Assembly: GCF_014696355.1 (NCBI RefSeq)
Contig: NZ_JACJQA010000039.1
Span: 1-64,000, forward strand
From: Pseudanabaena sp. FACHB-1998
GTDB lineage: Bacteria > Cyanobacteriota > Cyanobacteriia > Pseudanabaenales > Pseudanabaenaceae
DNA length: 64,000 nt
Direction: 5' to 3'
Shown: one piece after another, positions 8,012-64,000 of the stretch
Layout: each line of letters opens with the position of its first letter
Numbering within the stretch: the first letter of the stretch is position 1
The notes under the pieces: generated by a model
Databases searched by the model: none
The model's input: the letters and a program-made list of their open reading frames with translations, nothing else
Told to the model about the DNA's origin: nothing
Position numbers and translations under genes: made by a program

Positions 8012-8684
8012 GCGATCGCTTGATTGGAAGATCCCGTCCATGCGGGTAGTGATACCAGCATCTTCGGATGCAACTGGTAGTTAGGCGATCGCTTGATTGG
8101 AAGAAGATGGGGTATTAGCTAATGGCTTACATTCAATTTGGATGCAACTGGTAGTTAGGCGATCGCTTGATTGGAAGCTAGTAGAAAGTTTCCCCAAATC
8201 ATGAAAGTTGCGATGCAACTGGTAGTTAGGCGATCGCTTGATTGGAAGAGCTTATTGATAAAGAAATTAATACACCTTCCTTAGATGCAACTGGTAGTTA
8301 GGCGATCGCTTGATTGGAAGTGAAGAATATTCAAAAGCAGTTTGAACATTGTCCCAAGATGCAACTGGTAGTTAGGCGATCGCTTGATTGGAAGTAGAAC
8401 GGGGTGCTTTTGGCGGCGTAAAAGATGCGAGATGCAACTGGTAGTTAGGCGATCGCTTGATTGGAAGAGCGCCGCGCCCGTTTAGCGCTGATGAAGTAAA
8501 GTTGATGCAACTGGTAGTTAGGCGATCGCTTGATTGGAAGGTAGGCTTTTTGATGATGGCGATCGCTTATCCAGTGATGCAACTGGTAGTTAGGCGATCG
8601 CTTGATTGGAAGATTGCCAGTGAGATCGACGAGCTTGCGTAGTTTTTGATGCAACTGGTAGTTAGGCGATCGCTTGATTGGAAG

Positions 8685-8719
8685 CATTTTCATGATTAGT
8701 AATTTGGTAATTAGGCGAT
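8685..8719 (+). other. Spacer 10, whose 3' part resembles the repeat
   Basis: The end of this spacer reads TTGGTAATTAGGCGAT, one base different from the repeat's CTGGTAGTTAGGCGAT over its last 15 bases. It may target another HIP1-containing sequence that resembles the repeat, or reflect a misprocessed acquisition. Confidence 0.5.
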
Positions 8720-10132
8720 GATGCAACTGGTAGTTAGGCGATCGCTTGATTGGAAGGTATAAACCTGCTACAGATGACCCGTATTGTGCTGAGATGCAAC
8801 TGGTAGTTAGGCGATCGCTTGATTGGAAGCAAGCTTCTAGATTCTGCTTTCAATGAAATAGAATCGATGCAACTGGTAGTTAGGCGATCGCTTGATTGGA
8901 AGTTAAGTTTATAAAATGCGATCGCTAACTCAGCGATCGATGCAACTGGTAGTTAGGCGATCGCTTGATTGGAAGGAATTCTTGGCACGGGTGCTAGGTT
9001 TTTATCTGGTAGATGCAACTGGTAGTTAGGCGATCGCTTGATTGGAAGTGATGATCTCACCATGCAGCCTTCCACTAATTCGCGGATGCAACTGGTAGTT
9101 AGGCGATCGCTTGATTGGAAGTCGTAATGCAAGCAATTTAAAGCGCGGTAATAACCAGAGATGCAACTGGTAGTTAGGCGATCGCTTGATTGGAAGTTAG
9201 TTTAAAAGGCTTGCCAGACAAAACCTTGATCGATGCAACTGGTAGTTAGGCGATCGCTTGATTGGAAGAATATTATTGGGGAAACCTTCGACTCCAATAT
9301 TTTGATGCAACTGGTAGTTAGGCGATCGCTTGATTGGAAGTTTGCTAAAGATTCTTGCTCAATAGTGACTTGAGGATGCAACTGGTAGTTAGGCGATCGC
9401 TTGATTGGAAGTGAGTACAAAGCCGCGTTACCTAAGCAAGGCGAAGATGCAACTGGTAGTTAGGCGATCGCTTGATTGGAAGGGTAAAATCTTGCAAGGG
9501 TTCTGACGCATCTATGTGATGCAACTGGTAGTTAGGCGATCGCTTGATTGGAAGACAACTTGGTAGATGGCGATGCAGTTTATGTCTCGCCCGATGCAAC
9601 TGGTAGTTAGGCGATCGCTTGATTGGAAGCAGTTTCGATCGATACTGGCAAAAATGATGGTGAGATGCAACTGGTAGTTAGGCGATCGCTTGATTGGAAG
9701 TCGCTACGCAAACTCCATCCAACTTCTCTATTACACGATGCAACTGGTAGTTAGGCGATCGCTTGATTGGAAGCATACAACAGCTTAGAAACTCATCCTA
9801 ACTTTGACGATGCAACTGGTAGTTAGGCGATCGCTTGATTGGAAGCCTCATTTTGATGAATTGCGGGGTAACACCTTAAGATGCAACTGGTAGTTAGGCG
9901 ATCGCTTGATTGGAAGTCGACCATTTAGCAGGTATACCTTTAACTCTTGCGATGCAACTGGTAGTTAGGCGATCGCTTGATTGGAAGACCATCAAACTTG
10001 ACGTTTTGGGGATAACTAATTGACGATGCAACTGGTAGTTAGGCGATCGCTTGATTGGAAGCAAGAAGTTATCAAAGCGCCAGAAAAATTATAACGATGC
10101 AACTGGTAGTTAGGCGATCGCTTGATTGGAAG

Positions 10133-10166
10133 GGGGTGACACTTAATGGTGATGTCACCATTGACA
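10133..10166 (+). other. Spacer 30, containing an internal palindrome
   Basis: The spacer includes AATGGTGATGTCACCATT, an 8-bp inverted repeat around a 2-bp centre. Its guide RNA could fold on itself. The protospacer may be an operator-like or terminator-like site. Confidence 0.5.
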
Positions 10167-10324
10167 GATGCAACTGGTAGTTAGGCGATCGCTTGATTGG
10201 AAGTCCCATATCTGCTCGGATGCTCCTGTGGCTTCGAGATGCAACTGGTAGTTAGGCGATCGCTTGATTGGAAGCGATCTTTTCAATTGCCTGACTTGGC
10301 GATCGCCGATGCAACTGGTAGTTA

Positions 10325-59959: not shown

Positions 59960-59990
59960 AAAAGGCGGCGCGATGCGCCGCCTTTTTTAT
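59957..59990 (+). terminator. Terminator after purB (also used by the convergent SIMPL gene)
   Basis: The stem AAAAAGGCGGCGC / GCGCCGCCTTTTT surrounds GAT and is flanked by A- and T-runs. Confidence 0.85.
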
Positions 59991-60763
59991 TACTCAACTG
60001 CAAAGGTAATGGCGACTACGGCGCGGATATCTTTGTCGATGGTTGTGGTGTTGTATGCGCCACTGTTGCTGACTTCGGTGGAATATCGGGCGGTAATTTG
60101 GAAGACATCGGTTTCGGCTTTGCGGATTGTGCCAAGGCGACTGCCTGAGACATTGAGGATCGCTTCTCCTCTAGATTTAGCATCTTTAGTTGCTTCCGAA
60201 ATCATATCTACTCGCAATTTGCCAAGCTCAGTATAGAGATATTCCGCAGGCTCAGAGATAAAGGGCAGACCATCATTAATCAAATCCGTACTCGATCGCG
60301 CGATCGCTGTAATTGCATCGACATCTTTGGAACGAATTTCAAAGCGTTGGACTAGGCGATAGGCAATAGTTCGACCTGTTTGTGCGCCATTACTATTGGT
60401 TTCGGGAATGGGTTGGGTATCGATCGCACTCAGGGTAATCGCATCATTGGGAATATTTTTGCTCTTGAAGTAGGCTTGTACTTTGTCGGAATGGCGTTTG
60501 AGTTCTTGATAGGCAAGGGGCAATGTGGCTTGCTGACTAGAAACGGAACTTCGCCAAATCACAAAATCGGAACGAATCGGACGGGTTGAGGAACCAATTA
60601 CCGTCAGGTTGTCATTTGACCTCAGCGATCGCAGGGCATTTCCTGCAAGATAGGCGCTACCGACTAGGGCGATCGCGATGGCAAGCATTCCACTAAATAG
60701 TTGGGGAAATGCTTTGGAATTTTGGGTGTTGGATTCTGGTAGCATGGCTTTGAGGGAAATCAT
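59990..60763 (-). CDS. SIMPL (DUF541) domain protein, exported
   Basis: I use the ATG at 60763 (MISLKAMLPESNTQN), giving 257 residues. An ATG at 60745 is possible, and the longer frame needs a TTG. A membrane segment (LFSGMLAIAIALVGSAYLAGNAL) is followed by the SIMPL domain: NLTVIGSSTRPIRSDFVIWRSSVSSQQATLPLAYQELKRHSDKVQAYFKSKNIPNDAITLSAIDTQPIPETN, RLVQRFEIRSKDVDAITAIARSSTDLINDGLPFISEPAEYLYTELGKLRVDMISEATKDAKSRGEAIL. These proteins are periplasmic or membrane-anchored, with no settled function. It is convergent with purB. Confidence 0.9.
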   Translation of the reverse strand: MISLKAMLPESNTQNSKAFPQLFSGMLAIAIALVGSAYLAGNALRSLRSNDNLTVIGSSTRPIRSDFVIWRSSVSSQQATLPLAYQELKRHSDKVQAYFKSKNIPNDAITLSAIDTQPIPETNSNGAQTGRTIAYRLVQRFEIRSKDVDAITAIARSSTDLINDGLPFISEPAEYLYTELGKLRVDMISEATKDAKSRGEAILNVSGSRLGTIRKAETDVFQITARYSTEVSNSGAYNTTTIDKDIRAVVAITFAVE

Positions 60764-60950
60764 GGCTAAGTTAGCTGACGCAGATAGAGGGGATAGGTTA
60801 CAAGTTGAAATAAATCGCAATGTTGGGCTAGGTCGGTTTTTACTATGTCGCGGACAATTTATACATAGCGATCGCTGGTAGGATAAATTTGCTATATAGG
60901 GTTAAACTTTAGGCACGATCAGAATTTTGTGAGTGCATGAGACAAAAGGT

Positions 60951-62246
60951 ATGAGCGATCGCATCGAACAATTTCAGGCAGCTTCGCGTAATTTGCAGTT
61001 ACAGCCTCTTTTGACTGACGAAGATCGCCAAAAGTTTATGGTGGATTATGGCAGCGAGTGCATTGATATATTGGAGCAGAAAATTTTAGTTTGCGATGAA
61101 AATACAAATCAGTTTGTGTTTGCGGGACATCGCGGCTGTGGCAAATCGACTTTGTTATGTGATTTTGCTCAGCAAATGGAAGGACAATTTTTTACGGTAT
61201 TTTTCTCAATCTCTGACTTGATTCAGATGAAAGAGATTAGCCATATTAATATTTTGTTTGCGATCGCCTTAAAGATGATGGAAAAGGCGGAACAGGATAA
61301 GGTCACCATTGCGGATGATAAAAAACAAGCTTTTTTTGATTGGTTTAAGGAACGGACTAAGACGGAAACTGTTGAGATCAAAGGGCAGATGAGTCTGGGT
61401 ATAAATCTGTTTGAGGTGATTAAGAGCAAACTCTCAACGGAACAAGGTACTAAGGAAGAGATTAAGACTAAGTTCACACAAAATTTTCGTGATTTGATTG
61501 ATACTTTGAATGCGATCGCTACAGAAATTAAGCTGGCGACTAAGTTAGAAATATTGGTGATTGTTGACGATCTGGACAAGGCTGATTTGGCTCAAATCGA
61601 TGATATTTTTCAAAAGAATCTCAAGGCTTTACTTCAGCCTAAATTTATTATTATTTACACAGTGCCGATCGCCACGATCCGCGATGGTAAGTTAAAAAAA
61701 TATATTGAAGATGAGACGAGCAACCGCATTTTTGTAATGCCTGTGTTAAAGCTTTATCCGATGGGAGAAAGCCGTAAACCTCATGGAAAGCCAAATTCTA
61801 ATGCGATCGAGATTTTGCAATCGGTATTAACGCGGCGGATCGATCCTGATTTGTTTGAGGCAGGAGTTGAGGAGCAGATTGCGCTGAATAGTGGTGGTGT
61901 GCTGCGTGAAGTAATGCGAATTACGAAGGAATGTTGTGATTTAGTTTTGGTAAAGTTGCGGCAGCAGATGCGTCGAAAACAAAATGTCGATGATTTGAAA
62001 ATTGATCAAGGGATTTTGGCTGAGGCTCTCGATAATATTCGCAATGATATGAAGATTACTTTGAGTAAGAGCGATCGCCAAATTTTGCTACAAACCTATG
62101 AAAACTATACGCCTGACGATCCCAAACAGCAGGAGTTTCTTGATTTGTTGCATAATCTTATTGCGATCGAATATCGCAATCGCGAGAGTTGGTATGATGT
62201 CCATCCTTTGATTGTGGAACAGTTAAAGATTGAGAAGATGATTTGA
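60951..62246 (+). CDS. P-loop ATPase (AAA/STAND-like) of unknown function
   Basis: I start at the ATG at 60951 (MSDRIEQFQ), giving 431 residues; an upstream GTG adds six. Walker A is GHRGCGKST (G59-T67) and Walker B is ILVIVDDLDK (201-210). A charged insertion (~115-180) separates them. The C-terminal part has a sensor-like NRIFVMPVLKLYP and a helical/winged-helix-like region ending HPLIVEQLKIEKMI, resembling Orc/Cdc6- or STAND-type ATPases. It is followed 104 bp later by a TPR protein gene with its own degenerate ATPase-like N-terminus, probably a functional partner. The role is unknown; defence or signalling is inference. Confidence 0.75.
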   Translation: MSDRIEQFQAASRNLQLQPLLTDEDRQKFMVDYGSECIDILEQKILVCDENTNQFVFAGHRGCGKSTLLCDFAQQMEGQFFTVFFSISDLIQMKEISHINILFAIALKMMEKAEQDKVTIADDKKQAFFDWFKERTKTETVEIKGQMSLGINLFEVIKSKLSTEQGTKEEIKTKFTQNFRDLIDTLNAIATEIKLATKLEILVIVDDLDKADLAQIDDIFQKNLKALLQPKFIIIYTVPIATIRDGKLKKYIEDETSNRIFVMPVLKLYPMGESRKPHGKPNSNAIEILQSVLTRRIDPDLFEAGVEEQIALNSGGVLREVMRITKECCDLVLVKLRQQMRRKQNVDDLKIDQGILAEALDNIRNDMKITLSKSDRQILLQTYENYTPDDPKQQEFLDLLHNLIAIEYRNRESWYDVHPLIVEQLKIEKMI

Positions 62247-62323
62247 TCCCCCTCAATCCCCCTTAAAAAGGGGGAAGAAGAAAAGAAAATTCTCCCCCCT
62301 TTTTAAGGGGGGCTGGGGGGGAT
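62246..62323. repeat. Dispersed C/G-run hairpin
   Basis: GATCCCCCTCAATCCCCCTT and its approximate complement at 62300-62323, with inner AAAAAGGGGG / CCCCCTTTTT, form a long imperfect hairpin. This repeat type is common in cyanobacterial genomes. It starts in the stop codon region of the ATPase gene. Confidence 0.75.
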
Positions 62324-62350
62324 CTCCACTCTGAAACGTAGCAAAAAATC

Positions 62351-64000
62351 ATGTCCGACCTAATCCTTCTCAATGAAGAAAATGCCAATGTTTACGATCG
62401 CTTGGTCGTATCCCTTGAGGCTGGATTGGGAACGTTGCAGATTTTGATCGCTGTGTGTGATAATTCGGCACTGAAGCAGGAGGTGATTAGGCGCTATGAG
62501 GCGGAGTTAGAGGCGGAGGGGGTAAAGGTCTATCGGTTGGCGTTAAATCCTGATGAGCCGAGTTTGTTACAGGCTTTGATTGATGGCAAGATTGATAAAA
62601 ATACACAGGCGATCGCTACGGTATTAGGTGCAGAGAAGTTAAGTAATTTGGGTGCAAATAATCGCGAAAGGTTAGATAGTTTTTTGGGCTATTTGCAATG
62701 GACGCGGGAGGCTTTGCGGGGTTATCCTCTGCCAATTGTGTTGTGGTTGCCTTCGGCGCTATTAGTGGAGATTGCTAAAAAAGCGCCTGATTTTTGGAGT
62801 TGGCGCGGTGGTGTGTTTAACTTTGGCTTTGCGAAGTTGGATTTCTCAAAGGTGGTGTTTAGTAACAATAGAGATTTTGTGTCAGCCCAAAGCGATATTT
62901 CTCAAAGCTCAAGTTCTGTTCTTTCGGTAAAACAATTAGAAGATTCCCTTACAGAAGCAATTAAGACTTGGGGTGAAGATAGCGCTAATACGGAACCAGT
63001 TTATGCTCAGTTAGGGAAGCTTTATGCAGAAAGGGTTAGAGGAAATAAAACGGAAGATCGAGAAAGAGAAACTGTTTTAGCAGAAACATATCTCCTACGG
63101 GCTATTGATATACAAAAAACATATAAACGCAGATCCGATCTTATATATTCGCTAAATAGTTTGGCTGATATGTATAAGTTTCTTGGCTATTGGGATAAAG
63201 CTGAAGCACTTTATAAAGAATCTCTAGTAGAATTGCGAGAAGAACTAAATAATAAAGAAAGAATTGCATTGATTTGGGGGCATTTGGGAGACATTGAGCG
63301 CAATCGAGGCAACTGGGATGCGGCGGAATCTCTCTACAGGCAATCTTTGCAATTGTTTACTGAATTAGGCAATCGCGTGGGTAAGGCAGCATTTTGGGAG
63401 CGGTTGGGAGAAATCGAGCGCAATCGAGGCAATTGGGATGCGGCGGAATCTCTCTACAGGCAATCTTTGCAATTGTTTACTGAATTAGGCGTTCGCGCGG
63501 GTATGGCAACTTCTTGGGGAGCATTGGGATATATCGAGAATATTCGTGGCAACTGGGATGCGGCGGAATCTCTCTACAGGCAATGTTTAGCAGTTAAAGA
63601 AGAATTAGGTGATCGCGCGGGTATGGCAACTTCTTGGGGATTATTGGGAGACATTGAGCGCAATCGAGGCAACTGGGATGCGGCGGAATCTCTCTACAGG
63701 CAATCTTTGCAATTGTTTACTGAATTAGGCGATCACGCGGGTATGGCAACTTCTTGGGGAGCATTGGGAGAAATCGAGCGTAATCGAGGCAATTGGGATG
63801 CGGCGGAATCTCTCTACAGGCAATCTTTGCAATTGTTTACTGAATTAGGCGGATTATATCTCATTGCTGAAGGGAATTTTGATTTTGCCTTACTCGAAAA
63901 ACAACGCGGCAATCTCACTCTTGCTCAGCAATATTATGACAAAGCCAAAACCATCTATCAACAACTCGGTGCGATCAAAGACTTAGAAGAAATCGAAAAG
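62351..64000 (+). CDS. TPR protein with N-terminal degenerate ATPase-like domain (partial, runs off the window)
   Basis: Open from the ATG at 62351 to the window edge, this is 550 codons with no stop. Residues 1-175 (VYDRLVVSLEAGLGTLQILIAVCDNSALKQEVIRRYEAELEAEGVKVYRLALNPDEPSLLQALI ... VLGAEKL ... FLGYLQWTREALRGYPLPIVLWLPSALLVEIAKKAPDFWSWRGGVFNF) resemble an ATPase fold without a Walker A lysine, a known N-terminal module of cyanobacterial TPR proteins. A linker is followed by TPRs. At least five consecutive 40-residue units (63291-63851) are nearly identical in DNA. It likely works with the preceding ATPase. Confidence 0.85.
   Translation, partial: MSDLILLNEENANVYDRLVVSLEAGLGTLQILIAVCDNSALKQEVIRRYEAELEAEGVKVYRLALNPDEPSLLQALIDGKIDKNTQAIATVLGAEKLSNLGANNRERLDSFLGYLQWTREALRGYPLPIVLWLPSALLVEIAKKAPDFWSWRGGVFNFGFAKLDFSKVVFSNNRDFVSAQSDISQSSSSVLSVKQLEDSLTEAIKTWGEDSANTEPVYAQLGKLYAERVRGNKTEDRERETVLAETYLLRAIDIQKTYKRRSDLIYSLNSLADMYKFLGYWDKAEALYKESLVELREELNNKERIALIWGHLGDIERNRGNWDAAESLYRQSLQLFTELGNRVGKAAFWERLGEIERNRGNWDAAESLYRQSLQLFTELGVRAGMATSWGALGYIENIRGNWDAAESLYRQCLAVKEELGDRAGMATSWGLLGDIERNRGNWDAAESLYRQSLQLFTELGDHAGMATSWGALGEIERNRGNWDAAESLYRQSLQLFTELGGLYLIAEGNFDFALLEKQRGNLTLAQQYYDKAKTIYQQLGAIKDLEEIEK
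63291..63851 (+). repeat. 120-bp tandem repeats within the TPR gene
   Basis: Units begin at about 63291, 63411, 63531, 63651 and 63771 and share long identical blocks such as GGATGCGGCGGAATCTCTCT. Each encodes one 40-residue TPR. The third unit differs most (CAATGTTTAGCAGTTAAAGA). The last is cut by a divergent segment after ~80 bp. Confidence 0.9.

Follow-up and report, generated by a model that had tools for sequence, protein, structure and literature searches.

We describe a pair of adjacent genes, one for an intact ATPase and one for a nucleotide-dead AAA+ domain followed by a TPR array, which together may form a STAND-like switch that is split over two proteins and carries a TPR sensor open to exchange, a reading for and against which we see the case as evenly balanced. 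Its observed basis is the pair itself and its conservation, the overlap of the two frames, the motifs that are intact in one protein and missing from the other, the variation in repeat number, and an exchange of heads at one locus; the AAA+ folds of both proteins are predicted from structural models. The pair lies at the right end of the window—the whole 64,000-nucleotide stretch that was analyzed—which comes from a cyanobacterial genome, here G000 (contig C33; 71,414 bases); the other G-numbers denote the genomes with which it was compared within Pseudanabaena.

A preliminary description, made from the sequence letters, had placed an ATPase frame before a TPR frame on one strand, and our reading of the open reading frames bears this out; taken as a whole, that description was partly right, in that the pair is real but the near-identity of all five repeat units was overstated. 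The first gene (60951..62246, plus strand) encodes an active AAA+ ATPase that belongs to the ORC/Cdc6-TnsC-STAND clade and has 431 aa from an ATG or 437 aa from a GTG at 60933. The second encodes a pseudo-AAA+/TPR protein of 554 aa, which occupies 62351..64000 (plus strand) in the window, its frame (62351-64015) closing with a stop codon at 64013-64015. In the source strain, 104 bp separate the two genes, and this gap holds a palindromic GATCCCCC...GGGGGATC element (62245..62331, strand not assigned); similar palindromic GATCCCCC...GGGGGATC elements lie 3' of the TPR gene, just beyond the window's right edge (L002:4118-4340). Because the TPR gene stops 15 bases past the window, ending in TPRs, the C-terminal effector expected beyond that edge is absent, and no effector domain was found in either protein of the pair. 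The flanks in the window are housekeeping genes, with purB and a divergent gene (59990..60820, minus strand), which we take to be SIMPL/DUF541-like, before the pair and a phosphoglucomutase gene on the opposite strand after it. The SIMPL/DUF541-like gene also adjoins the pair in G011, G020, and G021, as it does in G000, and adjoins an ATPase-less copy in G001. Elsewhere in the window, a CRISPR-like array (8067-10275) carries roughly 30 copies of a 37-nt repeat, GATGCAACTGGTAGTTAGGCGATCGCTTGATTGGAAG, at a spacing of 71-73 nt.

The ATPase retains both nucleotide-binding motifs. In its Walker A motif, GHRGCGKST (61125..61151, plus strand), residues G65, H66, G68, G70, K71, and T73 are invariant in 30 relatives, and in the Walker B strand, the LVIVDDLDK region with its DDLD (61548..61577, plus strand), D212 and D215 are invariant and D213 nearly so in the same number; of the 94 partner ATPases that are full-length, 93 retain GK[ST]. 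Pfam placed KAP_NTPase marginally over its cut-off (20.5 vs 20) and AAA_16, NACHT, and DAP3 all under theirs, with no curated Pfam STAND model above cut-off for this protein. A fold search with the AlphaFold model (pLDDT 85) returned Orc/Cdc6 (Z 16.1), TnsC (15.9), CED-4 (13.4), and plant NLR cores (∼13), matches that make the earlier label "AAA/STAND-like" correct at the level of the fold. Motifs and model thus combine intact Walker A and B, an AAA+ core, and a C-terminal helical and winged-helix-like part, as in the STAND/ORC-Cdc6 clade. A paralogous ATPase in the same genome (G000:C41) has no dead-domain neighbor.

The N terminus of the TPR protein had been read as an ATPase lacking Walker A, and rightly so: not one of 106 relatives has a Walker A motif, and the model adopts an AAA+ fold. 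Alignment, model, and fold search together delimit an AAA+-fold domain with neither Walker A nor Walker B at residues 1-161 (62351..62833, plus strand), with mostly CD(D/N) at the P-loop position across the family. Pfam has no match for residues 1-177; the model (pLDDT 86.5) has the strand and helix order of AAA+ proteins, and its best fold match is TnsC (Z 12.2), then Orc1/Cdc6 (11.0). An AAA+ fold that has lost its Walker motifs is also what characterizes inactive-STAND (iSTAND-like) domains. Because profile comparison found no sequence relationship between the dead domain and its partner ATPase, we make no claim that the two are paralogues, and their kinship is one of fold only; among solved structures, the search for sequence relatives of the dead domain gave nothing convincing. 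A clue to its role may be Arg152 of the APDFWSWR motif (62804..62806, plus strand), a candidate arginine finger in trans that is present in 97 of the 101 relatives with a readable motif. In AAA+ proteins, arginine fingers (Box VII) occur where the last core strand begins, and Arg152 is placed just before this strand, the model having a helix at 146-150 followed by a strand at 152-158. Given this usual finger position, we propose Arg152 as the finger lent to the partner, and infer that the dead domain might complete the partner's ATP site in this way. All C termini behind the dead domain in the proteins scanned are either TPR or nSTAND1-WD40; the latter belong to proteins of 1649 and 1833 aa, which the dead AAA+ domain heads in the same genome (C21 and C40; L063:5860-12238 and L064:7142-12643), and one of these two genes has a distant ATPase homologue directly upstream.

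The two genes stand side by side repeatedly among 97 relatives. A scan with one genome per species gave 248 relatives, and the 80 dead-domain genes kept for the neighborhood count are cyanobacterial, bar one record labeled Gracilibacteria (L146), which we suspect to be mis-binned. The ATPase gene immediately precedes 75 of these 80, usually with frames that overlap by 1-14 nt. The other five comprise two that do have an ATPase upstream (L164 and L166), one with only its 3' part (L117), strain G001 (L104), and one in which no upstream ATPase was found (L147); the dead-domain genes L094-L096 have no partner nearby. In G001, the ATPase has been deleted down to about 25-30 codons (L069:9710-9808) and the TPR gene is open, its array reduced to one unit, which argues against a strictly obligate pair. 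The partner ATPase persists only as broken or partial frames in L116, L133, L163, and L169, showing that the pair also decays in a few species. Viral contigs yielded no relative and plasmids only six distant cyanobacterial matches, several of them annotated as WD40-type; a literature search found no description of exactly such a pair of an ATPase and a dead AAA+/TPR protein.

The TPR array consists of five 40-residue units of 120 bp each (63266..63865, plus strand), detected by TRF as a tandem array at 63273-63851 with a period of 120 bp, 4.8 copies, and a score of 865, far beyond chance. The preliminary description had called the five units almost identical in DNA and freshly duplicated. The array stands, but near-identity extends only to a 72-nt core common to units 1, 2, 4, and 5 (97-100%), and neither to unit 3, whose core is 76% identical, nor to the whole 120-nt units, which are 73-89% identical to one another. 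Likewise, not every unit is new: the sole unit of G001 is the closest match of unit 5, and unit 3 is closest to one from G008. Between Pseudanabaena strains, repeat number does vary, as the comparison suggested at the outset has now revealed, with 1 to 8 clean units (source strain, 5; G011, 5; G021, 4; G008, 4; G020, 8; G001, 1; G005, 4) and protein lengths of 400-673 aa. The terminal units match across strains and the middle ones turn over; G011 carries a clear recent 240-bp duplication (98%), and some arrays elsewhere in the family have windows of 100% identity. A stable repeat number beside housekeeping genes only, the pattern that the preliminary description had set against its own reading, does occur in part of the family: many or most Nostoc species keep the gene near 587 aa with a stable array of diverged repeats, and the flanks in our window are purB and phosphoglucomutase, but the counts in Pseudanabaena vary. 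Since recently amplified TPR arrays were already known from cyanobacteria, as Fig. 1a of PMC5074805 illustrates, TPR amplification as such is not new.

Unexpectedly, the heads in front of the array have been exchanged at this locus. We compared the site across the genus as purB, an optional SIMPL gene, a variable element, and a right-flank gene; the exchange described here concerns one locus in five genomes. The variable element is absent, leaving an empty site, in G014, G017, G023, and G025 (the right flank being alaS-like in G023 and G025); it is the pair in G000, G020, and G021, with a different right flank in G000; and it is an MNT-HepT module plus a STAND-TPR gene in G002 and G013, the head of this STAND gene being NB-ARC/NACHT and unrelated to the pair. 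Between G002, a one-contig genome, and G020, the left flank and the MNT gene are 94-95% identical, and the array and C-tail of the STAND gene align with the pair gene at 83% over 1.2 kb, the alignment running directly into a common right flank (96%). Between MNT and array, G020 has the ATPase and the dead domain, whereas G002 has HepT and the NB-ARC/NACHT head; the G002 tail also matches the pair tail of G011 at 87.6% over 250 nt. The G021 junction begins with 90 bases that match MNT-HepT (96.7%), followed by 106 that match sequence 5' of the G000 ATPase (91.5%); at base 90/91, a HepT stub is thus fused to what lies upstream of the pair. Immediately 5' of the ATPase, both G020 and G021 keep an MNT gene (L068:7599-7940 and L067:11429-11770) that has been left without HepT as its partner, with a HepT stub remaining, and G013 retains the 3'-terminal 94 nt of the pair gene behind the stop of the STAND gene. 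Similarity between arrays is by itself no proof of exchange, because other STAND-TPR genes of the genus, such as a STAND homologue found elsewhere in G004, carry like units, which would let arrays recombine; it is the flanks, the C-tail, and the stubs, beyond the arrays, whose alignment establishes head exchange at this one locus. The direction is suggested by the stubs: the pair apparently took the place of a HepT-STAND head in the lineage of G020 and G021, and the STAND gene of G013 probably now sits where a pair-type 3' end once was. Directly 3' of the pair, G021 also has a PIN-domain toxin-like gene (L067:8006-8422).

Among published systems, the nearest layout is that of the nSTAND2 two-gene systems (Kaur et al. 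2021; PMC8195603, section 15), in which an active and an inactive STAND NTPase are paired and the inactive one has a variable C terminus. By analogy of layout, the pair could itself be such an Aravind-group nSTAND2 system with TPRs in place of GT4 or HEPN, which we consider possible but rather doubtful. In both, neighboring genes encode an active STAND-type NTPase and one that is nucleotide-dead (its NTP site being eroded), the dead partner has a variable C terminus, and a conserved arginine is proposed as a finger; the sub-threshold DAP3 match of our ATPase points the same way. However, the C-terminal domains differ, being GT4 or HEPN effectors in the nSTAND2 systems described there and TPR or nSTAND1-WD40 here, no GT4 or HEPN effector occurs on the inactive partner among the proteins we scanned, and no Pfam model for that family matched. 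The ternary iSTAND/iSTAND2 conflict systems (PMC7159879 and PMC8195603) resemble the pair in that an inactive STAND domain is one of their constant components and in their enrichment in multicellular cyanobacteria, but they are tied to MoxR and vWA genes, whereas the pair's only fixed partner is a KAP/ORC-like ATPase, and no MoxR/vWA pair was recognized by eye among the neighboring genes that were read. Cyanobacterial TPR and WD40 arrays of recent amplification, among them the WRAP operon with its two STAND genes, as presented in Fig. 1a of PMC5074805 and in the citation of Dunin-Horkawicz 2014 by PMC9218822, share with the pair near-identical repeats amplified separately in orthologues and the coupling of STAND genes; the pair differs from what these sources describe in that a nucleotide-dead AAA+ domain serves as the partner and in that one locus documents a head exchange before the array. 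Bacterial NB-ARC/NACHT STAND-TPR proteins, finally, have a like TPR array and, in G002 and G013, the same chromosomal site, but unlike the pair, they are single-chain proteins that contain a Walker-bearing NTPase of their own and have HepT/MNT as a neighbor.

The neighborhood gives no sign of a defense island. A survey for defense genes, called for at the outset, found no enrichment around 24 homologous loci, where matches were generic ABC, kinase, or IscS-type genes only, plus scattered toxin-antitoxin genes, and no PADLOC defense model matched over the full protein length. PADLOC matches to VakA and mad8 cover part of the ATPase domain only (in the case of VakA, the P-loop) and were set aside; the other partial match was to a generic TPR. 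This lack of defense neighbors and the housekeeping flanks would suit a scaffold in housekeeping or stress signaling, whose ATPase would remodel some cellular complex or, as do its ORC/TnsC fold relatives, bind DNA, with the TPR partner as adaptor and array changes tolerated rather than selected. The stable protein length in Nostoc would fit as well, as would stable syntenic paralogues beside DnaJ-like and peptide-deformylase-like genes in three strains. Such a role nevertheless seems unlikely to us, as the patchy presence of the pair, with four empty sites, and its replacement at the same site by an NB-ARC/NACHT STAND gene are unusual for housekeeping. That near-identical units arise by unequal recombination across cyanobacteria, making their freshness uninformative on function and the head exchange a by-product of array homology, agrees with the known amplified arrays (PMC5074805, Fig. 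1a) and the conserved array ends but is quite improbable to our minds, because frames stay open through repeated unit changes and both exchanged heads are intact ATPase modules.

The preliminary description had further proposed a role in conflict or sensing. Its structural elements, a STAND-type ATPase, a pseudo-ATPase partner, and a strain-variable array, are all supported; the proposal itself gains from the array changes between strains and from the alternative STAND-TPR gene in relatives, which is as expected of a receptor locus in conflict, but not from the missing effector or the defense survey. The pair may have a role in phage defense or another conflict.

In the split STAND-like switch that we favor, the first gene product would be the NTP-hydrolyzing AAA+ engine and the second a nucleotide-blind AAA+ partner that presumably docks on it and may supply the arginine finger. 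The TPR arm would act as a sensor, probably by binding a ligand, and decide whether both proteins assemble in the active form. As the array gains and loses whole units and the heads before it are exchangeable, one type of sensor could be run by either a two-gene engine or a one-gene NB-ARC/NACHT engine. More tentatively, and with considerable doubt, we speculate that the TPR array is a plug-in sensor for two unrelated and functionally interchangeable ATPase engines, which recombination within the array or 5' of it would swap, so that an immune-type receptor would be re-equipped with its recognition arm kept. If the engines are interchangeable in this sense, the dead AAA+ domain and the ATPase would be the two-piece equivalent of a STAND receptor, which would open the function of a large family (248 relatives in the species scan) to simple tests, and it would be seen how NLR-type bacterial receptors can alter engine and sensor independently, through recombination at repeat arrays.
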